Made by a program: the position numbers and the translations under genes | The notes under the pieces: model-generated | Databases searched by the model: none | The model's input: the letters and a program-made list of their open reading frames with translations, nothing else | Told to the model about the DNA's origin: nothing | Assembly: GCA_026125665.1 (NCBI GenBank) | Contig: JAHCKS010000055.1 | Location: 1-34,959 of the forward strand | Source of the DNA: Rubrivivax sp. | Lineage (GTDB): Bacteria > Pseudomonadota > Gammaproteobacteria > Burkholderiales > Burkholderiaceae_C | DNA length: 34,959 nucleotides | Direction of reading: 5' to 3' | Part shown: piece after piece, positions 10,714-19,704 of the stretch | How positions within the stretch are numbered: position 1 is the first letter of the stretch | How the letters are laid out: the number at the start of each line of letters is the position of its first letter

Positions 10714-11961
10714 ATGGCCAAGGAATACAAGGACATGGTCTTCGGGCTGGACATCGGCACCCACAAGGTGATGGTGGTCGCGGCCGAAGTGCTGCCGGGC
10801 AGCGGCGGCGAAGGCGGCGAGCTGCGCCTGGCCGGCATGGGCATCGCGCCGACCTCGGGCCTGAAGCGCGGCGTGGTGGTGAACATCGACGCCACCGTGC
10901 AGAGCATCCAGGCGGCGCTGAAGGAGGCCGAGATGATGGCCGCCTGCAAGATCGGCGCCGTCTTCACCGGCATCACCGGCAGCCACATCCGCGGCATCAA
11001 CAGCACCGGCATGGTCATCGTGCGCGACAACCGCGAGGTCTCGCCGGTGGACGTGGCGCGCGTCGTCGAGACGGCCAAGGCGATCAACATCCCGAACGAC
11101 CAGCGGCTGCTGCTGGTGGAGCCGCAGGAGTTCGTCATCGACGGCCACGAGGTGAAGGAGCCGATCGGCATGAGCGGCAGCCGGCTCGAGGTGCGCGTGC
11201 ACATCGTCACCGGCGCCGGCAGCGCGGCCGAGAACATCGTCAAGTGCGTGCGCCGCTGCGGCCTGGAGGTGGCCGGCCTCGTGCTGAACCCGAGCGCCAG
11301 CGCCGCTGCCGTGCTGACCGAGGACGAGAAGAGCCTCGGCGTGGCGGTGGTGGACATCGGCGCCGGCACCACCGACGTGCAGGTGTACACCGACGGCAGC
11401 GTGCGGCACACGGCGGTGATCCCGATCGCCGGCGACCTGATCACCAGCGACATCGCGATGGCGCTGCGCACGCCGACCAAGGACGCCGAGGAGATCAAGC
11501 TCGAGCACGGCGTGGCCAAGCAGCTGCTGGCCGACCCGGGCGAGCAGGTCGAGGTGCCGGGGCTCGGCGACCGCGCACCGAGGATGCTGAGCCGCCAGGC
11601 GCTGGCCGGCGTCATCGAGCCGCGCATCGAGGAGATCTTCTCGCTCGTGCACCAGGTCATCCGCGACAGCGGCTACGAAGAGCTGCTGTCCAGCGGCATC
11701 GTGCTCACCGGCGGCAGCGCGGTGATGCCCGGCATGGTGGAGCTCGGCGAGGACATCTTCCTCAAGCCGGTGCGCCGCGGCACGCCCACCTACAGCGGGC
11801 CGCTCTACGACATGGTGGCCAACCCGCGCAGCGCCACCGTGATGGGCCTGCTGGAGGAGGCGCGCGCGGCGCGGGCGCGCGGGCACAAGGCGGCGGCTCA
11901 GGCCGGCTCGGTGAAGACCGTGCTGGCGCGCGCCAAGGACTGGTTTCTCGGCAACTTCTAG
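10714..11961 (+). CDS. ftsA: Cell division protein FtsA
   Basis: FtsA is the actin-like ATPase that anchors FtsZ filaments to the inner membrane. The 415-aa protein starts with the phosphate-1 loop VFGLDIGTHKVMVV. Its SHUT/1C region carries GITGSHIRGINSTGM near 88, the phosphate-2 motif VVDIGAGTTDVQVY lies near 213, and the adenosine motif SGIVLTGGSAVMPGM lies near 327. The extreme C-terminus (VLARAKDWFLGNF) is the amphipathic membrane-targeting helix, so the gene is intact. It lies 57 bp after ftsQ and is followed by a simple-sequence spacer before ftsZ. Confidence 0.96.
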   Translation: MAKEYKDMVFGLDIGTHKVMVVAAEVLPGSGGEGGELRLAGMGIAPTSGLKRGVVVNIDATVQSIQAALKEAEMMAACKIGAVFTGITGSHIRGINSTGMVIVRDNREVSPVDVARVVETAKAINIPNDQRLLLVEPQEFVIDGHEVKEPIGMSGSRLEVRVHIVTGAGSAAENIVKCVRRCGLEVAGLVLNPSASAAAVLTEDEKSLGVAVVDIGAGTTDVQVYTDGSVRHTAVIPIAGDLITSDIAMALRTPTKDAEEIKLEHGVAKQLLADPGEQVEVPGLGDRAPRMLSRQALAGVIEPRIEEIFSLVHQVIRDSGYEELLSSGIVLTGGSAVMPGMVELGEDIFLKPVRRGTPTYSGPLYDMVANPRSATVMGLLEEARAARARGHKAAAQAGSVKTVLARAKDWFLGNF

Positions 11962-12083
11962 AACAACGACGACGGCGACGACGACCGCGACAGCGACGAC
12001 GACAACAACGACGGCGACAGCGACGACAACGACGACGACGGAACGGCAACTTCCAACGGCAACGGCAACGGCAACTGCAACAA
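11962..12083 (+). repeat. Simple-sequence tract between ftsA and ftsZ
   Basis: The ftsA-ftsZ spacer is made almost wholly of GACGAC, AACGAC, GGCGAC and, at its 3' end, GGCAAC-type trinucleotide pairs. It has no recognisable promoter elements. Such tracts can change length by replication slippage. Because it sits between two genes whose product ratio matters for division, length changes could affect ftsZ expression. Confidence 0.75.
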
Positions 12084-12098: not shown

Positions 12099-13493
12099 AT
12101 GCCCATCGAAATGATCGACGACTTCGGCCAAGGCACGCAGATCAAGGTGATCGGTGTCGGTGGCGGCGGCGGCAATGCCGTCGAGCACATGATCAGCCAC
12201 GGCGTGCAGGGCGTGGAGTTCATCTGCGCCAACACCGACGCGCAGGCGCTCAACCGCAGCAGCGCCAACACGCTGGTGCAGCTGGGCAGCAACGGCCTGG
12301 GCGCCGGCGGCAAGCCGGCGGTGGGGCGCGCGGCGGCCGAGGAGGCGCTCGACCGCATCCGCCTGGCCATCGACGGCGCGCACATGCTCTTCCTCACCGC
12401 GGGCATGGGCGGGGGCACCGGCACCGGCGCGGCGCCCGTCATCGCGCGGGTCGCGCGCGAGATGGGCATCCTCACCGTGGGGGTGGTGACCAAGCCCTTC
12501 GAGTTCGAGGGCGGCAAGCGGGCCAAGCAGGCGGCCGAGGGCGTGGCCGAGCTCGAGGCCAACGTCGACAGCCTCATCGTCATCCTCAACGAGAAGCTGA
12601 TGGAGGTGCTGGGCGACGACGTCACGCAGGAGGACGCGTTCGCGCACGCCAACGACGTGCTGCGCAACGCCGTGGGCGGCATCAGCGACATCATCCACAT
12701 CCCGGGGCTCGTGAACGTCGACTTCGAGGACGTGAAGACGGTGATGAGCGAGCCGGGCAAGGCGATGATGGGCACGGCGCACGCCGGCGGCCCCGACCGC
12801 GCGGCCAAGGCGGCCGAGCTGGCCGTGGCCTGCCCGCTGCTGGAGGGCATCGACCTGAGCGGCGCGCGCGGCGTGCTGGTGCTCATCGCGGCGGCCAAGA
12901 GCAACTTCAAGCTCGCCGAGAGCCGCAACGTGATGAACACGATCCGCCGCTATGCCGCGGAGGACGCGCATGTCATCTACGGCACCGCGTACGACGAGAG
13001 CCTGGGGGACCAGCTGCGCGTGACCGTCATCGCCACGGGGTTGTCCAGCGTGCGCCGGGCGCAGCAGCCACATCACCCGCATCACCCTGCAGGCGGCCCG
13101 CCGGGCGGGCTGACGGTGGTGCACCAGCAGCCGGCGCAGCAGCCGCAGGGGCAGCCGGCGCACGCGCAGGCGCATGCCCACGCGCAGCAGGCGCACGCGC
13201 AGGCGCATGCGCACCTGCGCAGCGGCACCGACGGCCTGCCGGTGCTGACGCAGCCGATGCCGGGCGTGGGCGGCGGCGCGGCGGTGGGTTTTGCGACGGC
13301 GCCGCAGGGTGCGCCGGCCATGCCGCCGCAGCCGCCGCAGCCACCGGCGGCGCAACCCTACGACCACCTGAACACGCCCAGCGTCTGGCGCCGCCCGCGC
13401 GCCGACCAGGCGGCGGCGAAGGTGGAGGCGCTGGGCGCCAGCGGCATGGAGGAGATCGAGATCCCGGCGTTCCTGCGGAAGCAGGCGGACTGA
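12099..13493 (+). CDS. ftsZ: Cell division GTPase FtsZ (intact copy)
   Basis: FtsZ is the tubulin-like GTPase that forms the division ring. The 464-aa product has the nucleotide loop IGVGGGGGNAVEHM (residues 18-31), the tubulin signature GMGGGTGTGAAP near residue 104, and the catalytic T7 loop NVDFEDVKTVM near 205. A long linker rich in His, Gln, Ala and Pro (about residues 325-440) follows. The C-terminal partner-binding peptide is EEIEIPAFLRKQAD. It starts at ATG 12099 behind AAGGAGG. The linker is longer than in E. coli. Codons 163 to the stop are present a second time at 16344-17252, about 98.7% identical, so the 3' two-thirds of this copy may have been contributed by a recombination event. 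No lpxC gene follows. Confidence 0.96.
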   Translation: MPIEMIDDFGQGTQIKVIGVGGGGGNAVEHMISHGVQGVEFICANTDAQALNRSSANTLVQLGSNGLGAGGKPAVGRAAAEEALDRIRLAIDGAHMLFLTAGMGGGTGTGAAPVIARVAREMGILTVGVVTKPFEFEGGKRAKQAAEGVAELEANVDSLIVILNEKLMEVLGDDVTQEDAFAHANDVLRNAVGGISDIIHIPGLVNVDFEDVKTVMSEPGKAMMGTAHAGGPDRAAKAAELAVACPLLEGIDLSGARGVLVLIAAAKSNFKLAESRNVMNTIRRYAAEDAHVIYGTAYDESLGDQLRVTVIATGLSSVRRAQQPHHPHHPAGGPPGGLTVVHQQPAQQPQGQPAHAQAHAHAQQAHAQAHAHLRSGTDGLPVLTQPMPGVGGGAAVGFATAPQGAPAMPPQPPQPPAAQPYDHLNTPSVWRRPRADQAAAKVEALGASGMEEIEIPAFLRKQAD

Positions 13494-13500
13494 AGGGGCG
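12585..13500 (+). repeat. Left copy of a 916-bp direct repeat (3' part of ftsZ)
   Basis: This stretch (ftsZ codon 163 to seven bases after the stop) is repeated in the same orientation at 16344-17259, with a constant offset of 3759 and no indels. By eye I count 12 base differences in 11 codons. Ten codon changes are silent; one changes Pro to Ala at about residue 415, in the linker. The repeats flank the tcmP/DUF5131/DUF3800 cassette. Confidence 0.95.
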
Positions 13501-13585
13501 GCTTGAGATGAGCGGAGTGGGGGCTGGGCAACGCGGTTCGCGCACGTAGTCCAGCCACCGCGGGCAGGTGTGAGCGCCTGAAACC

Positions 13586-14428
13586 ATGGCGGCGGATGAC
13601 CTGATCAAGACAGATCCCTCGGACGGCCTCCCTGCGCCGCCCGTTGGCGAGTGGGCTCGCGACAAACACAGCCTGCTTCGGCTCTACATCGAGATCACAC
13701 GATCTACCAGACGCAAGTACCTCGGCGGACCAGGCAAGGCGGGCGCGACCTTCACCGATCTGTACTGTGGCGCGGGCCGTGCTTACATCAAAGGCACCGA
13801 TGACTTCGTCGATGGAAGCCCCTTGGTGGCCTGGGCCGCCTCACAAGCTGGTGGCCCGTTCAGTGCTATCCACCTTTGTGACGCTGATCCCCGCTTGCTG
13901 GCCGCGGCAACGCAGCGGCTTGAGGCTCGGGGGGCGCCAGTACACCCACATGCAGGGCCATCGCATGGCGCTGCGAAGCGGATCGCCGACGTCCTTGATC
14001 CGTATGCACTGCACTTCGCTCTACTCGATCCCTTTGCGTTGGATCTCCCGTTCGAGGTTATTGAGGCGCTGGCGAAGCTCAAGCGCATGGACATCATGAT
14101 CCACGTGTCTGCCATGGAGCTTCAGCGGAACTGGGCTCGCTATTCGCAGTCCGAGGCATCACCCTTGGATACGTTCGCTCCGGGATGGCGCCAGTCGGTC
14201 AACCTTCAGCAGGGCGACGAGGCGGCCAGGATCTCCTTCATCGACTACTGGGTGCGACGCCTCGGAGCGCTCGGCTTCAACGAGCAACCGCGGTTTCGGC
14301 TCGTTCGTGGTCCGAGGAACATCCCGCTCTACTGGCTGGTGCTCGTTGCCAAACACAGGATCGCGTCGCGCTTCTGGGCCAAGGCCGTCGGTCTGAGCTC
14401 ACCACAGGGATCCTTCTCTGACTTCTGA
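13586..14428 (+). CDS. tcmP: Three-Cys-motif partner protein TcmP-like (methyltransferase-like fold)
   Basis: The 280-aa product fits the TcmP family, which is known for sitting beside a three-cysteine DUF5131 protein, as it does here. Visible features are an N-terminal helix with [14 protein letters not shown], then [12 protein letters not shown] (residues 56-67), which resembles the SAM-binding glycine loop of Rossmann methyltransferases. [12 protein letters not shown] near 95 could be the motif-II acid, [10 protein letters not shown] lies near 147, and the family-like C-terminus reads [19 protein letters not shown]. Function is unproven; nucleotide or protein methylation is inferred from the fold alone. 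The gene begins 92 bp after ftsZ and ends 26 bp before DUF5131. Its GC is clearly lower than that of ftsZ, a sign of transfer. The ATG at 13586 has only a weak ribosome site. Confidence 0.85.
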
Positions 14429-14454
14429 ATGCTGACGGCACCGGGGAGACGCGC

Positions 14455-15189
14455 ATGGCCGCGAACTCGAGCATCGAATGGACCGAACACACTTGGAATC
14501 CGGTGACGGGTTGCGTGAAGATTAGCCAAGGGTGCAAGCACTGCTACGCCGAGCGGATGGCCAAGCGGCTGAATGCGATGGGGTCGGAGCGCTATCGGCA
14601 CGGGTTCGCACCGACCCTTCATCCTGACCTGATCGAGCTACCACGCCGGTGGCGCAGGCCTCGCCTGATCTTCGTGAACTCAATGAGCGACCTCTTCCAG
14701 GAGGACGTACCGGACTGGTTCATTCGGGACGTGTTCGAGACGATGCGAGCCACACCGCAGCACACGTATCAGGTTCTGACCAAGCGGAGCGAGCGCTTGC
14801 GAGCGATGGCCCCCTTCCTGCCGTGGCCGAGCAATGTGTGGATGGGTGTCAGCGTGGAGGATGCCCGCGTCATGCACCGTGTGATCGATCTGGCCACCGT
14901 CCCAGCGAGGGTGCGCTTCTTGTCATGCGAGCCCTTGATCGGCCCGCTCGATGAACTGCCACTGGCGCGAGTGGACTGGGTGATCGTGGGCGGCGAGTCG
15001 GGCCCACGTGCAAGGTCCATGGACCGGCTCTGGGTCGAATCCATCCGACGGCAGTGCCGTGCAGCCAATGTCCTGTTCTTCTTCAAGCAGTGGGGTGGTG
15101 TTCGGAAGGACCTGACAGGGCGCCAGCTGAATGGCCGCACGTACGACGCCATGCCTCGCCGACTGATCCCGATTGGAGTCCAGTCCTGA
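14455..15189 (+). CDS. DUF5131 (phage Gp37/Gp68 family) protein with three-Cys motif
   Basis: This 244-aa protein matches the Gp37/Gp68 family: [15 protein letters not shown] at the start, then Cys20, Cys27 and Cys30 in a CX6CX2C arrangement followed by YAERMAKRL. Later motifs are [14 protein letters not shown] near 74, VLTKRSERL near 107, WMGVSVED near 128, [11 protein letters not shown] near 155, [14 protein letters not shown] near 176 and FFKQWGG near 209. The Cys spacing resembles an iron-sulfur site of radical-SAM type but is not the canonical CX3CX2C. A radical reaction with SAM is inferred, not shown. The start is ATG 14455 behind GGGGAG. It pairs with the TcmP gene upstream; members are common on phages and islands. 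The 3' end overlaps a small ORF that leads into DUF3800. Confidence 0.88.
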
Positions 15190-15343
15190 CGCAACTCTCG
15201 CGCTGAGCGAGGACGACATCGCCCACTACCAGAAGATCGTCGTCGCGCCGTCTGAAACAATCCGCCTGATGGCCGAGATCGACCGCGTGATCGACGCGCA
15301 TGGAGGCTGGCCGGGGGCGTTCCGGACCGCCACCGAGGCATGA
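15173..15343 (+). CDS. Small ORF (~56 aa) coupled to DUF3800, function unknown
   Basis: An open frame from just after a TGA at 15164 to TGA 15341-15343 encodes an acidic, helical peptide containing [29 protein letters not shown] and [11 protein letters not shown]. Its stop overlaps the DUF3800 ATG as ATGA (15340-15343), the classic coupling signature, and its base composition matches DUF3800 rather than DUF5131. The only early start is TTG 15173 inside the end of DUF5131; the first in-frame ATG (15269) is late. It may therefore be a real small partner with a non-ATG start. It may also be the 3' remnant of a gene that lost its start when the DUF3800 module was joined to the TcmP/DUF5131 module. 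I do not recognise a family. Confidence 0.5.
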
Positions 15344-16167
15344 GCAATACGCCGGACCCGCCCAGCACGCTGCACTTCTTCGTCGACGAGGCGGGCGACC
15401 CGACGCTCTTCGACGCCAAGGGCCGCATCCTGGTCGGGCAGGAGGGCTGCTCGAAGACCTTCATCCTCGGCAAGCTCGACGTCGCCGATCCGGTGGCGTT
15501 GCAGGCAGCCCTGGCAAGGTTGCGTGCCGAGCTGCTCGCCGACCCCTACTTCAAGCGTGTTCCATCGATGCAGGCCGAACGCGGCAAGACCGCGCTCGCC
15601 TTCCACGCCAAGGACGACGTGGCCGAGGTCCGGCGCGAGGTGTTCAAGGTCCTGATGGACTTCGACCTGCGCTTCTACGCGGTTGTGCGCAACAAGGCCT
15701 CGCTGCTCGACTATGTGCGCCAGCGCAACGAGCGTGAGCCGGGATACCGATACCGGGGCGACGAGCTTTACGACACGCTGGTCGAAGAGCTGTTCAGGCG
15801 CTACCACCCGCTGGCCGATCGGCTGGAGATCTGCTTCGCCAAGCGTGGCAGCAAGTCGCGCACGCAGGCCTTTCGTTCGGCCATCGAGAAGGCCGAGGCC
15901 CGCTTCGAGAGCCAGTACGGAATCCGCCGCTCGGCCGAGGTGGCGATCGTGGCCAGCACGCCGCCCGAGAGGGCCGGTCTCCAGGCAGTCGACTACTGCC
16001 TGTGGGCCTTGCAGCGCCACTACGAGCGCGACGAGTCCCGCTATGTCGAGCTGATCTGGGACAAGGTCGTCGAGATCGACGACATGGACCGCATCGAAGG
16101 CGGCCGCAAGGGCGTGGTCTACAACAAGAAGCGCCCCCTGATCGTGGACCAGGAGGCGCCGGAATGA
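15340..16167 (+). CDS. DUF3800 domain protein (RNase H-like fold)
   Basis: The 275-aa product starts LHFFVDEAGDPTLF, the Asp-Glu-x-Gly opening typical of DUF3800. Further acids lie in FHAKDDVAEVRREVF near 87 and in the C-terminal QAVDYCLWALQRHYERDESRYVELIWD. The family is thought to adopt an RNase H-like fold with an acidic metal site and is common on mobile elements and defence islands. Nuclease activity here is inference. The start overlaps the small upstream ORF (ATGA). A 176-bp spacer with a hairpin follows, then the truncated ftsZ copy. GC (about 65% in a counted line) is intermediate between TcmP/DUF5131 and the chromosome, suggesting a separate origin from that pair. Confidence 0.85.
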   Translation: MSNTPDPPSTLHFFVDEAGDPTLFDAKGRILVGQEGCSKTFILGKLDVADPVALQAALARLRAELLADPYFKRVPSMQAERGKTALAFHAKDDVAEVRREVFKVLMDFDLRFYAVVRNKASLLDYVRQRNEREPGYRYRGDELYDTLVEELFRRYHPLADRLEICFAKRGSKSRTQAFRSAIEKAEARFESQYGIRRSAEVAIVASTPPERAGLQAVDYCLWALQRHYERDESRYVELIWDKVVEIDDMDRIEGGRKGVVYNKKRPLIVDQEAPE

Positions 16168-16221
16168 GGTGTGGGAGGTATAGGACCCGCTGGCCGAGGC
16201 CGGCGGCTCACACGGCATGAA

Positions 16222-16267
16222 GCCGAATTTCGCCTCCGCACGTTAGGCATTCTAACGGCGGTTCGGC
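16222..16267 (+). repeat. Nested hairpin at the right end of the cassette
   Basis: GCCGAA (16222-16227) pairs with TTCGGC (16262-16267). Inside it CCGC (16236-16239) pairs with GCGG (16258-16261), and CGTTAG (16241-16246) pairs perfectly with CTAACG (16252-16257) around a 5-base loop. GTTAGGC at 16242 matches the integron core-site consensus GTTRRRY, but no partner site of the opposite type is found upstream. There is no T-run, so it is not a standard terminator. It lies between the DUF3800 stop and the truncated ftsZ and may mark an old recombination site. Confidence 0.5.
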
Positions 16268-16343
16268 CGCCTGGTTGCACTCCGGACACGCTCGAGCGGA
16301 CGGCCCACGGCCGCCGCTCAGCTTGCCCGCCTCATGCGTCCCA

Positions 16344-17252
16344 CTCAACGAGAAGCTGATGGAGGTGCTGGGCGACGACGTCACGCAGGAAGACGCGTTC
16401 GCGCACGCCAACGACGTGCTGCGCAACGCCGTGGGCGGCATCAGCGACATCATCCACATCCCGGGGCTCGTCAACGTCGACTTCGAGGACGTGAAGACGG
16501 TGATGAGCGAGCCGGGCAAGGCGATGATGGGCACGGCGCACGCCGGCGGCCCCGACCGCGCGGCCAAGGCGGCCGAGCTGGCGGTGGCCTGCCCGCTGCT
16601 GGAGGGCATCGACCTGAGCGGCGCGCGCGGCGTGCTGGTGCTCATCGCGGCGGCCAAGAGCAATTTCAAGCTCGCCGAGAGCCGCAACGTGATGAACACG
16701 ATCCGCCGCTATGCCGCGGAGGACGCGCACGTCATCTACGGCACCGCGTACGACGAGAGCCTGGGGGACCAGCTGCGCGTGACCGTCATCGCGACGGGCT
16801 TGTCCAGCGTGCGCCGGGCGCAGCAGCCGCATCACCCGCATCACCCTGCAGGCGGCCCGCCGGGCGGGCTGACGGTGGTGCACCAGCAGCCGGCGCAGCA
16901 GCCGCAGGGGCAGCCGGCGCACGCGCAGGCGCATGCCCACGCGCAGCAGGCGCACGCGCAGGCGCATGCGCACCTGCGCAGCGGCACCGACGGCCTGCCG
17001 GTGCTGACGCAGCCGATGCCGGGCGTGGGCGGCGGCGCGGCGGTGGGTTTTGCGACGGCGCCGCAGGGTGCGCCGGCCATGCCGCCGCAGCCGCCGCAGG
17101 CGCCGGCGGCGCAGCCCTACGACCACCTGAACACGCCCAGCGTCTGGCGCCGCCCGCGCGCCGACCAGGCGGCGGCGAAGGTGGAGGCGCTGGGCGCCAG
17201 CGGCATGGAGGAGATCGAGATCCCGGCGTTCCTGAGGAAGCAGGCGGACTGA
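16344..17252 (+). pseudogene. ftsZ: 5'-truncated second copy of ftsZ (codon 163 to stop)
   Basis: This fragment lacks the nucleotide-binding first third of FtsZ but keeps the rest of the fold, the T7 loop, the whole His/Gln/Ala-rich linker and the C-terminal peptide EEIEIPAFLRKQAD. It is in frame throughout and differs from the intact gene by 12 bases, 10 of 11 changed codons being silent. The frame opens upstream into cassette DNA, and a TTG at 16275 could start a ~325-aa fusion, but no good ribosome site is seen. It cannot be a working GTPase. If translated it could compete for FtsZ-tail partners. The near absence of amino-acid changes shows it was a functional ftsZ until recently. Confidence 0.9.
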
Positions 17253-17259
17253 AGCGGCG
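16344..17259 (+). repeat. Right copy of the 916-bp direct repeat
   Basis: This is the partner of 12585-13500. The match starts abruptly at CTCAACGAGAAG; the left copy has ATC before it and the right copy has CCA. It ends about seven bases after the stop codon, where the two downstream flanks diverge. Recombination between the copies would delete 3759 bp and leave a single intact ftsZ directly upstream of the aquaporin gene. Confidence 0.95.
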
Positions 17260-17336: not shown

Positions 17337-18026
17337 ATGAAAGCCTACGCCGCCGAGTTCTTCGGCACGTTCTGGTTGGTCATCGGCGGTTGCGGGAGCG
17401 CCGTGCTCGCGGCCACGTTCCCGCAGGTGGGCATCGGCCTGCTCGGTGTGTCGCTCGCCTTCGGGCTGACGGTGCTGACGATGGCCTACGCCGTGGGCCA
17501 CATCTCGGGCGGGCACTTCAACCCGGCCGTGTCGGTGGGCCTGTGGGCCGGCGGGCGCTTCCCGGCGTCGCAGCTCGTGCCGTACGTCGCAGCGCAGGTG
17601 CTGGGCGGCATCGCGGCCGGCGCGGTGCTCTACGTCATCGCGTCGGGCGCGGCGGGGTTCGACGCCGGCAAGGGTTTCGCGAGCAACGGCTACGGCGCCC
17701 ACTCGCCGGGGCAGTACACGCTGGTGGCGGCGCTCGTGTGCGAGGTGGTGATGACGGCGTTCTTCCTCATCGTCATCCTCGGCAGCACCGACAAGCGCGC
17801 GCCCGCTGGCTTCGCGCCCATCGCCATCGGCCTGGCGCTGACGCTCATCCACCTCATCAGCATCCCGGTCACCAACACGTCGGTGAACCCGGCGCGCAGC
17901 ACCGGTGTCGCGCTGTTCGCCGGCGGCTGGGCGGTGGAGCAGCTGTGGGCGTTCTGGGTGGCGCCGGTGGTCGGCGGCGTGCTCGGGGCGGGGATCTACA
18001 AGTTCATCGGCAGCGAGGAGCGCTGA
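17337..18026 (+). CDS. aqpZ: Aquaporin Z
   Basis: AqpZ is a tetrameric inner-membrane water channel. The 229-aa product has six hydrophobic helices and the two half-helix NPA signatures, GGHFNPAVS near residue 61 and TSVNPARST near 182. The selectivity-filter arginine follows the second NPA, and His in HLISIP fits the aquaporin rather than glycerol-channel class. GAGGAGG lies 8 bases before ATG 17337. It stands alone, convergent with the acetyltransferase gene on the other strand (22-bp gap). It appears to be the resident gene downstream of ftsZ before the cassette came in. Confidence 0.95.
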
Positions 18027-18048: not shown

Positions 18049-18534
18049 CTAACGCCCCAGCGGCAGGTATAGCGTCATGCGCGCGTCGTGCAGCGAGCGA
18101 AAGCCGAAGTACAGGTAGAAGTCGCGCGCCGCGTCGTCCTTGGCGTCGACGACGAGCGCATAGGCGGCCACCTGTTCGCGCGCTTTCAGGCAGCGGTCCA
18201 CGGCGCAACCGAGCAGCAGCTTGCCGAGGCCTCGGCCGCGCTGAGCGGTGGCGGCGGCCAGCCGGCCCATGCGGAAGCAAGGCACCGGAAACCGCGGCAG
18301 ACGCTTGCGCTCGGCCTCGGGCAGCCGGGCTGCGTCCACCTCGGCGGCGCTGAGCGTGTAGTAGCCGAGGACGCGCGCCGGTTCGGCCGAATCCACCAGC
18401 ACGTAGACGGCGCTCAGGCCGCGCCGGCGGTGCTGCTCGGCGTAGCGGTGAAGGTACTCGTCGAGCGCCGGCACGCCGCAGGTGAAGCCCTGGCGGTCGT
18501 GCAGCGCGGGGTCGAGCGGGTGTTCCTCGAGCAC
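18049..18534 (-). CDS. GNAT-family N-acetyltransferase, TacT-like toxin
   Basis: The 161-aa product is a GNAT acetyltransferase of the kind paired with DUF1778 antitoxins; studied members acetylate charged tRNAs and stop translation. It begins HPLDPALHDRQGFTCGVPALDEYL, a family-typical opening (F.CG...LD.YL). It has LGYYTLSAAEV as the central strands, the acetyl-CoA loop AAATAQRGRGLGKLLL near 95, and the end FYLYFGFRSLHDARMTLYLPL with the usual catalytic Tyr region. The start is GTG 18534. It lies 25 bp downstream of the DUF1778 gene, the normal antitoxin-then-toxin order. The reading frame is intact, so the toxin is probably functional. Confidence 0.88.
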   Translation of the reverse strand: MLEEHPLDPALHDRQGFTCGVPALDEYLHRYAEQHRRRGLSAVYVLVDSAEPARVLGYYTLSAAEVDAARLPEAERKRLPRFPVPCFRMGRLAAATAQRGRGLGKLLLGCAVDRCLKAREQVAAYALVVDAKDDAARDFYLYFGFRSLHDARMTLYLPLGR

Positions 18535-18559
18535 GGCGCGCCCCCGGGCACGGCCCGGT

Positions 18560-18832
18560 TCAGGCGCGGCGAACCCGGCGGCGGGCCTGCGTGAGCGCGG
18601 ACTTCAGCGCCGGGTTGGGGGCGAAGGCCGAGTCGAGCGCCTGGGCGAAGGCGGCAAAGTCGCGCTGGCTGAGCGTGATGCGCGCCTCGCGGTCCAGCAG
18701 CAGCAGCGCCTTCTCCTTGGCTGCGGCACGCACGAAGCCCGCCATCGTGGTGCCCATCAGCGCCGCAGCCTTGGCGACCACGGCCTTGTCGTCGGCATCC
18801 ATCTGCAGGTCGAAGCGGGCGGCGGCGGGCAT
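18560..18832 (-). CDS. DUF1778 ribbon-helix-helix antitoxin (TacA-like)
   Basis: This 90-aa protein is the cognate antitoxin. The N-terminal strand and helices (ARFDLQMDADDKAVVAKAAALMGTT, then FVRAAAKEKA) form the ribbon-helix-helix DNA-binding part. LSQRDFAAFAQALDSAFAPNPAL is the tail that in this family wraps the GNAT toxin. The open frame extends upstream to 19099, but I start at ATG 18832, where similarity to the family begins. A palindrome at 18862-18880 lies 29 bp upstream and is a likely autoregulatory site. It forms an operon with the toxin gene downstream. Confidence 0.87.
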   Translation of the reverse strand: MPAAARFDLQMDADDKAVVAKAAALMGTTMAGFVRAAAKEKALLLLDREARITLSQRDFAAFAQALDSAFAPNPALKSALTQARRRVRRA

Positions 18833-18861
18833 GGCAGGGGTCCTCACGGGCGGGGTCGGTA

Positions 18862-18880
18862 CTACGGGATTTTGCCGTAG
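18862..18880 (-). promoter_or_regulatory. Candidate operator of the DUF1778/GNAT operon
   Basis: CTACGG (18862-18867) and CCGTAG (18875-18880) form a perfect 6-bp inverted repeat around an AT-rich 7-base centre, just upstream of the antitoxin start on the - strand. Ribbon-helix-helix antitoxins commonly repress their own promoter at such sites. Binding is inferred from position and symmetry only. Confidence 0.5.
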
Positions 18881-18914
18881 CAAGGTGATGCTGTCACGCG
18901 GGCCGTGCAGGCCG

Positions 18915-19068
18915 ATCTGCGGCGTTGGCGGGCAGGCTCGCTGGGCCGGACCATCTGCAACGGCATCTCTCGGGATCTGCGATCCGTGCGCAGAAAGCCG
19001 CGCTGTGACAGGCACTTGCCGAGCATGTCCGAGCAACGACATCTGCAATCGCCGCGTGAGCGATCTGC
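18915..19068. repeat. Five spaced ATCTGC motifs upstream of the toxin-antitoxin operon
   Basis: ATCTGC occurs at 18915, 18953, 18975, 19041 and 19063 in otherwise non-coding DNA between the DUF1778 gene and the Uma2 gene. Spacings are 38, 22, 66 and 22 bases, three of them multiples of 22, so some sites would lie on similar helix faces. The flanks are not conserved. It may be a binding-site array or chance; there is no gene here. Confidence 0.35.
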
Positions 19069-19104
19069 AGCGGCGTCGGTGCGGGGCGAGAGGCCGCAAC
19101 AGGA

Positions 19105-19704
19105 TCAGAACGCCACGTCGGTGCCGGCGTAGAGCTCGGCCAGGCGCACGCCCGGCCCTGGCAGGCCGGGCGTGGACGGCAGGTCATCGGCCTCGGTCAG
19201 CACCGCCAGCGCCCAGCGGCCGTCGTCGCCGCGCAGGTGCAGCTCGACGCGATGCTGTTCCTGGCTCACCACGGCGTACGCGCGCAGGCTCGGCAGCCGC
19301 ATGTAGGCGGCGAGCTTCTCGCGGCGGTCGATCTCGACCGTGCTCGGGCTCAGCACTTCGGCGATGAAGGTGGCGTCGTTCGCGGTCAAGGCGGCACCGG
19401 CCGTGGGGCTGCCGCACCAGACGAACACATCCGGGTAGTAGACCGACTCCGCCGCCTCGACATGCAGTTTCATGTCGTTGACGAAGGCCTGGCGTGGCAT
19501 GTGCGTGCCGTAGGAGGAAGAGGCCGCTTCGACAAGGCGATCGGTCTTGACGACCTGAAGGACGAACTGGCTGAGGGTGGTCGCCAGGTTCGGCGCGAGC
19601 GCCCAAGAGTCGGTCGAGCCAAAGGCCCGCAAGCCCGGGGCTCTGCAGCGGGGCACGCGCGCCGCCGAGTCTCCGCACCGGCAGCGGCGCTCTCTCGCCA
19701 CCAT
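19105..19704 (-). CDS. Uma2-family (PD-(D/E)XK-like) protein with atypical N-terminus
   Basis: From about residue 68 the 199-aa product matches Uma2-type nuclease domains. It has RQAFVNDMKLHVEAAESVYYPDVFVWC with the Asp of the active site, then AEVLSPSTVEIDRREKLAAYMRLPSL with the Glu and Lys. The usual family beginning, with its Glu-containing first helix (EYLAWE-type) and RHN-x-NLA stretch, is missing. Instead about 65 residues of Arg/Cys-rich unrelated sequence precede the domain, and the start lies only 18 bp after the aceE stop. I suspect a 5'-truncated or rearranged gene, possibly no longer functional. Uma2 genes often occur in many copies in bacteria; their role is unknown. Confidence 0.65.
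   Translation of the reverse strand: MVARERRCRCGDSAARVPRCRAPGLRAFGSTDSWALAPNLATTLSQFVLQVVKTDRLVEAASSSYGTHMPRQAFVNDMKLHVEAAESVYYPDVFVWCGSPTAGAALTANDATFIAEVLSPSTVEIDRREKLAAYMRLPSLRAYAVVSQEQHRVELHLRGDDGRWALAVLTEADDLPSTPGLPGPGVRLAELYAGTDVAF

Follow-up and report, generated by a model that had tools for sequence, protein, structure and literature searches.

A truncated ftsZ copy behind an attC-like hairpin marks a recurrent insertion point in Rubrivivax genomes

Background

Gene-targeting islands, attG insertions of integron cassettes and long target duplications are already known. Insertion at attG puts integron cassettes outside integrons (Loot et al. 2024, as cited in PMC12901181 and PMC11023631), restriction-modification genes insert with a long duplication of the target (Nobusato et al. 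2000, described in PMC3031569), and dusA islands use a conserved gene as their attachment site (PMC4482086). Here we report on an island found between two direct copies of the 3′ part of ftsZ in a 34,959-base contig of Rubrivivax sp. (JAHCKS010000055.1, our contig C219), which is called the window below; its genome is G000 in our numbering. The island consists of cargo genes, a bulged hairpin at the right end and a 5′-truncated ftsZ copy (ftsZ′). The gene ftsZ is essential for cell division.

As far as the two citing papers describe integron cassettes inserted at attG, the ftsZ islands are similar to them in the stem, the extrahelical A, the L-box-like flanks, the presence of an integron integrase in the genome and a fixed point 3′ of the stem. 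They differ in that the ftsZ hairpins have no outer R boxes and so are not attC sites by definition, in that the proposed ftsZ unit would carry an ftsZ 3′ end while the exact hairpin occurs within the genus only at ftsZ starts, and in that the cargo reaches up to about 6 kb. Long target duplications, as outlined in PMC3031569, also have cargo without an integrase between long direct copies of the target, and a one-copy empty allele in a relative (in our case G063, a related species and not the same one). In contrast to them, the ftsZ islands have a fixed breakpoint and a terminal hairpin, and the cargo of several islands is not of the restriction-modification type. The conserved gene used as attachment site recalls the dusA islands, within what the available part of PMC4482086 covers. 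However, the ftsZ islands have no integrase among the tested cargo, the restored 3′ part is very long, and the target is an essential division gene. Of the two hallmarks of integrase-bearing islands, the fixed point with a restored target is seen at ftsZ, and an integrase gene was not found in the tested cargo.

Our literature search returned no paper combining ftsZ, an attC site and an integron integrase. For ftsZ together with integration hotspot, genomic island or direct repeat, or for truncated or duplicated ftsZ, none was found by title among the matches listed, subscription papers being mostly outside the search. The literature covered suggests that islands of differing cargo, all with an attC-like hairpin at a single fixed position of ftsZ, have no earlier description.

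Results and discussion

The ftsZ repeat of the window

The two direct copies (Table 1) lie at an offset of 3759 and, aligned without gaps, are identical at 903 of 916 bases. Twelve of the 13 mismatches fall up to the stop codon and one in the 7 bases beyond it. In a 98.6% repeat of such length, chance is excluded. The initial annotation had described this repeat, with its left copy inside an intact ftsZ and its right copy headless and followed by aqpZ; both descriptions are confirmed, the genes now being supported by TIGR00065 and NF003838. It had also let the repeat begin at codon 163, which is right for the clean 916-bp match. Likeness to ftsZ, however, resumes in the right copy already near 16329 (GCCTCAT, codon 158/159), with scrambled sequence as far as 16343. 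The true breakpoint is therefore placed a few codons 5′ of codon 163. The 2843 bp between the copies (13501-16343) have a GC content of 0.645 versus 0.720 for the window. The lower GC content of the supposed four-gene cassette is thus real, whereas its gene content is three intact, family-assigned genes (TcmP, DUF5131 and DUF3800) and the remnant of a fourth.

Recurrence in the genus

FtsZ was searched in 60, and then in 81, Rubrivivax genomes. A second, headless ftsZ′ was found in 8 of the 81 (G000, G003, G018, G026, G034, G062, G082 and G102). It is well preserved in G000, G018, G026, G062 and G102. It is decayed in G034, where 36 codons were recognised, and in G082, a 75% complete genome in which no intact ftsZ was found. 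G003 retains codons 261-464 only, its junction is lost, and an IS66-type transposase frame lies across or beside the ftsZ′ copy. Among 80 named loci, each taken with at most 10 kb of flank and two of them starting inside ftsZ, a second copy was seen in at least three, all labelled Rubrivivax. Four genomes with two FtsZ matches were not scored as islands: G009, G072 and G078, where contigs end, and G104, where a second ftsZ of 78% identity lies on a 4.1-kb contig.

Contigs end inside ftsZ codons 159-230 in seven genomes (G009, G023, G026, G033, G068, G072 and G078), which may hide further repeats. In G026, the one of the seven examined for overlaps, a contig of 3719 bases overlaps itself by exactly 141 bases. 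This is expected from near-identical repeats collapsed in the assembly graph, and a circle would look the same. Such contig ends, and a window genome that is 88.6% complete in 268 contigs (6.28 Mb), could also be taken to favour an artefact of assembly or binning, which the initial annotation had named as fatal to its proposal. We find an artefact hardly credible: the window copies differ at 13 of 916 sites, and the same arrangement is found, likewise on single contigs, in Rubrivivax sp. A210 (NZ_CAJGBN010000005.1, presumably an isolate) and in other metagenome-assembled genomes (MAGs).

The initial annotation had further proposed to look among relatives for ftsZ-aqpZ without the cassette. Such an empty site was found in the related species G063, with a single ftsZ and aqpZ 250 bp away. 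On a rough tree the ftsZ′ repeat is patchy, with the near relative G063 being empty (471 bases, 34 sequences, 11 of 45 inputs dropped; the tree was used for patchiness only). The opposite arrangement, the window cassette 3′ of ftsZ without any repeat, which would have spoken against that annotation, was not seen. Other insertions occur there: G012 carries a transport operon (by eye) and G009 carries type I restriction, Fic and Uma2 genes between ftsZ and aqpZ, with no ftsZ repeat on either contig. The ftsZ-aqpZ interval in the window's clade is a busy insertion site. In G009, type I restriction genes are found 3′ of ftsZ on two contigs, C160 and C165. The latter begins at ftsZ codon 161, which suggests an unresolved repeat or a second strain.

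A conserved hairpin and variable cargo

The start of ftsZ′ is preserved in eight junctions of seven genomes: G000, G018, G026, G034, G062, G082 and, twice, G102. In all eight, ftsZ likeness resumes at codon 158/159, 8-15 bases past a hairpin of 6 + 5 pairs with a bulged A. The stem is preserved and the bulged A invariant throughout; 98.9% of the 88 cells of the hairpin alignment pair, and 2 of the 11 pairs have compensated changes. In seven of the eight junctions the common sequence starts roughly ten bases 5′ of the stem base, next to the cargo; G102b differs. The exact hairpin pattern has seven sites in the 81 genus genomes, every one of them against an ftsZ start at codon 158/159, versus none for the reversed control. 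Six of these sites are ftsZ′ copies already known, and the seventh, G102:C74, precedes a decayed ftsZ start. The exact pattern misses variants, and G082 was recovered only by a looser scan of the fetched loci.

Other explanations of the hairpin were considered. As a dispersed repeat of the window genome it was rejected, since a loose pattern gave 4 matches versus 5 for the control. A single match in viral contigs, on a phage-like contig without ftsZ by eye, was judged unrelated. Rfam at gathering thresholds gave no match in the window and seven other loci.

The cargo changes from island to island, and so does its orientation relative to ftsZ. G018 carries LysR, CoA-transferase, HMGL-like, glyoxalase-type, TctC and 2-hydroxyacid dehydrogenase genes (Pfam), G102 carries MarC and BCCT transporters, G034 a chemoreceptor, G003 RelE, HTH and PIN genes, and G062 encodes a protein that matches fibronectin III marginally. 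Across the islands the cargo comprises catabolic genes, transporters, a chemoreceptor, toxin-antitoxin genes and restriction remnants. The left ftsZ is intact, and other species have other cargo at this site; both support the earlier view of ftsZ as a landing site that is restored upon insertion. Also in line with the initial annotation, which saw no integrase, a Pfam search of the window cargo revealed no recombinase, and none was found among the cargo genes of other islands sent to Pfam, in which small open reading frames were only partly included. A fixed att-like point in a restored conserved gene is typical of gene-targeting islands, such as the dusA islands as far as PMC4482086 describes them. 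The ftsZ islands could, in this sense, be ordinary integrase-dependent islands whose integrase, a tyrosine or serine recombinase other than IntI, was lost or lies elsewhere. However, the tested cargo has no recombinase, the islands measure about 1.9-5.9 kb and the hairpin is attC-like, and we consider this origin very improbable.

Similarity of the hairpin to attC sites

In attC sites, the outer boxes R″ (RYYYAAC) and R′ (GTTRRRY) flank the stem. The ftsZ hairpins have the bulged stem of attC sites, with L boxes and an extrahelical base. A looser hairpin pattern, run on 399 genomes of the family (6 of them in the genus), gave six matches in three genomes (two in G000, one in G170 and three in G214) versus five for the control. 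Single matches of this kind can be chance, and the second G000 match (C35) looks like chance. The G170 match resembles attC by its outer boxes (by eye). In G214, which belongs to another genus, the three matches each constitute a complete attC site of 57 bases, at a distance of 2-6 kb from an intI gene that is 57% identical to the integron integrase of the window genome. The core of these sites is the same stem as that of the ftsZ hairpin. Since the stem is shared but the outer boxes are missing, we call the ftsZ hairpin attC-like and not attC. A strict attC search found none in 11 ftsZ loci and the window.

The window genome encodes an integron integrase (G000:C108:28-1038; 435 bits over the joined frame, cut-off 265), as do 45 of 60 genus genomes, the window's included. 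Sites of the attC type are visible in 5 of the 21 genus integrase regions scanned, one of them doubtful. G006:C35 and G064:C30 are integron arrays with 23 and 20 attC candidates, respectively (strict scan, overlapping candidates counted).

Which ftsZ copy belongs to the host

Right copies were compared over the 115 bases that begin at codon 164, 15 bases past the start of ftsZ likeness. They match their own left copy at 114 (G000), 115 (G018), 115 (G026) and 114 (G062) positions, versus 102-112 for the copies of the other three hosts. The right copy is host-like in all four testable genomes, which means that it is either the host's own or was converted almost up to the hairpin. Over longer stretches, the left and right copies differ at 1.4% of the sites in G000, at 20 of 801 sites (2.5%) in G018, with a length difference in addition, at 1 of 755 sites (0.1%) in G062, and at 4 of 231 in the readable part (the last 231 bases) of G102. 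This divergence is smaller than that between species. When the differences are polarised, those in G000 suggest more changes in the left copy and those in G018 more in the right one.

These data bear on two alternatives. First, the act of insertion could have duplicated about 0.75-0.9 kb of the host ftsZ, a process put forward earlier for restriction-modification genes. Such a duplication would fit the host-derived look of both copies in G000, G018, G026 and G062, the variable 3′ limit (7 bases past the stop codon in G000, 55 in G018) and the restriction-like nature of some cargo (G026). Its other limit, however, is fixed at codon 158/159 with a conserved hairpin, and there is no restriction-modification gene among the cargo genes searched against Pfam in G018, G062, G102 and G034. 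On balance a long target duplication appears improbable.

Second, and as our main rival, integration may have been driven by homology only, as the initial annotation had assumed. The hairpin-ftsZ′ junction would have arisen once, and circles or transformed linear DNA would recombine through the ftsZ arms, with the cargo being swapped secondarily. The arms of about 0.75-0.9 kb in the better-preserved cases, the tested cargo without a recombinase and the restriction of the exact hairpin to ftsZ starts within the genus are all consistent with this possibility. So are the uneven differences in G018, where gene conversion could account for a single difference in the first 374 bases and all others further on. 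What homology explains least is that differing cargo ends at nearly the same base, just 5′ of the hairpin, in seven of the eight junctions. Moreover, the right copies are host-like from codon 164 and not common between islands. A purely homology-driven integration is not established by these data, and we regard it as possible but somewhat unlikely, because the common breakpoint, the terminal hairpin whose exact pattern occurs in the 81 genus genomes only at ftsZ starts, and the host-like right copies speak for site-specificity at some step. Even so, islands may be spread, homogenised or deleted by homologous recombination of their arms.

A possible insertion mechanism

The sequences show a fixed breakpoint, a conserved hairpin, varied cargo, a host-like right copy and an integrase gene in the genome. 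From these we infer a circle, a recombinase and mobility. Our tentative preference, to which we give a little less than an even chance, is that cassette-like circles insert site-specifically at ftsZ codon 158/159 by means of a recombinase acting in trans, with the integron integrase as the leading candidate. The unit would be a circle containing an ftsZ 3′ end, the cargo and the attC-like bulged hairpin. It would recombine with the host ftsZ at that same point, the crossover lying 8-15 bases beyond the hairpin on its 3′ side. The ftsZ 3′ end of the circle would then complete the host gene, and the original 3′ end of the host would remain as ftsZ′. The choice of the resident integron integrase as the candidate acting in trans rests on the stem, which is the one found in integron attC sites. 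Afterwards the arms, which measure about 0.75-0.9 kb in well-preserved cases, might recombine and thereby homogenise or delete the island. A bolder version can be imagined, in which an integron-like cassette family uses ftsZ as its attachment site. The resident integron integrase would move circles into and out of ftsZ, each circle ending in a minimal attC-type hairpin and bringing its own ftsZ 3′ end, and ftsZ would be an anchored cassette port throughout the genus. This version seems to us rather doubtful.

Several observations weigh against insertion of such circles by the integron integrase. RYYYAAC and GTTRRRY are absent from the searched flanks of all eight ftsZ hairpins. Within the 81 genus genomes the exact hairpin was not found outside ftsZ junctions, their own integrons included, and no integron integrase was found in the island carrier G034 (a MAG, 89% complete). 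Covariation of the stem is modest: 133 of 500 shuffles reach the count of compensated pairs, and 5 of 500 the covariation score. A decayed hairpin-ftsZ′ piece of about 100 bases (G102:C74:4015-4113) lies away from ftsZ, flanked (by eye) by a berberine-bridge-type oxidase gene and a bactofilin gene. The copies are 97.5-99.9% alike in G000, G018, G062 and, over its last 231 bases only, G102, and no left copy looks imported from another species; this near-identity requires additional transfer within species or gene conversion. Finally, no circle, no occupied and empty pair of the same species and no transfer was seen. The integron integrase accounts least well for the missing R boxes and for the near-identity of the copies.

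Cargo and neighbourhood of the window island

The features of the locus are listed in Table 1. The TcmP-type and DUF5131-type genes are adjacent (13586-15189) and correspond to the pairing of the PADLOC system PDC-M41, DUF5131 strongly and TcmP weakly (34.6 bits); together they are a candidate defence pair. The island of G026 has the same reading-frame tail and DUF3800 gene; the alignment comprises 1422 positions, continues across the junction into ftsZ′ and is 84.5% identical. What lies in front of this part in G026 is, however, a gene for a PLD-domain protein whose match to the NgoFVII type is weak, and only the DUF3800 part is common to the two islands. The window cargo therefore looks composite. 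Judging from these sequences, the TcmP-DUF5131 pair may have taken the place of the front part of an older operon, perhaps a restriction-like one. In a comparison with plasmids, 81 records match the window cargo, none over more than 80% of the query. Among the matches listed, the similarity is confined to the DUF5131 part at 64-69% identity, and two further records reach 80-90%.

Table 1. Positions of the ftsZ island and adjoining features in the window
Feature	Coordinates	Strand	Evidence
ftsA, upstream neighbour	10714..11961	+	Open reading frame and position; named by eye from sequence and synteny
Intact ftsZ	12099..13493	+	TIGR00065, 381.1 bits; PF00091; PF12327
916-bp direct repeat, left copy (codon 163 to 7 bases past the stop)	12585..13500	+	
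TcmP, three-Cys-motif partner protein	13586..14428	+	TIGR04474, 134.8 bits (cut-off 53); PADLOC PDC-M41A, weak, 34.6 bits
DUF5131 (Gp37/Gp68-type) protein adjoining TcmP	14455..15189	+	PF07505, 333.6 bits; PADLOC PDC-M41B, 384 bits
C-terminal remnant of a reading frame 5′ of DUF3800, common to the G026 island	15201..15343	+	Reading frame and homology
DUF3800 protein	15340..16167	+	PF12686, 31.3 bits; PADLOC DUF3800_VII, 44.7 bits; 89% amino-acid identity to the G026 island gene
Conserved bulged hairpin with attC-like core, right end of the island	16294..16320	+	
Spacer from the hairpin to ftsZ-like sequence (8 bases here, 12-15 in other junctions)	16321..16328	+	
5′-truncated ftsZ′ (codon 158/159 to the stop, first 15 bases scrambled)	16329..17252	+	
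916-bp direct repeat, right copy	16344..17259	+	
aqpZ, neighbour of ftsZ in the empty site of G063	17337..18026	+	NF003838, 404.6 bits

Some further features of the region were observed. Short, imperfect, ACGACG-rich direct repeats lie between ftsA and ftsZ (11963-12043), and His/Ala/Gln-rich repeats are present in the FtsZ linker of both copies (13139-13214 in the left one). Downstream of aqpZ, on the minus strand (18049-19704), a GNAT acetyltransferase gene is found beside a gene for a TacA1-like antitoxin, along with a Uma2 protein gene. The former two are likely to be a toxin-antitoxin pair, and the genes of this segment are perhaps a further sign of insertions in the region.

Conclusions

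The above comparisons, which concern sequences only, suggest that the ftsZ islands are an undescribed kind of mobile cassette. Whatever the mechanism, where a contig of this genus breaks off inside ftsZ, the break may reflect a genuine repeat. If the proposed insertion is correct, a stripped attC-like site would widen the target range of integron integrases, and the question would arise how genes become joined to attC-type hairpins. The islands would also provide a natural example of an insertion that restores the essential gene it has entered. In that case, the genus would repeatedly be using an essential gene to dock genes for defence, transport and catabolism, while ftsZ stays unbroken.

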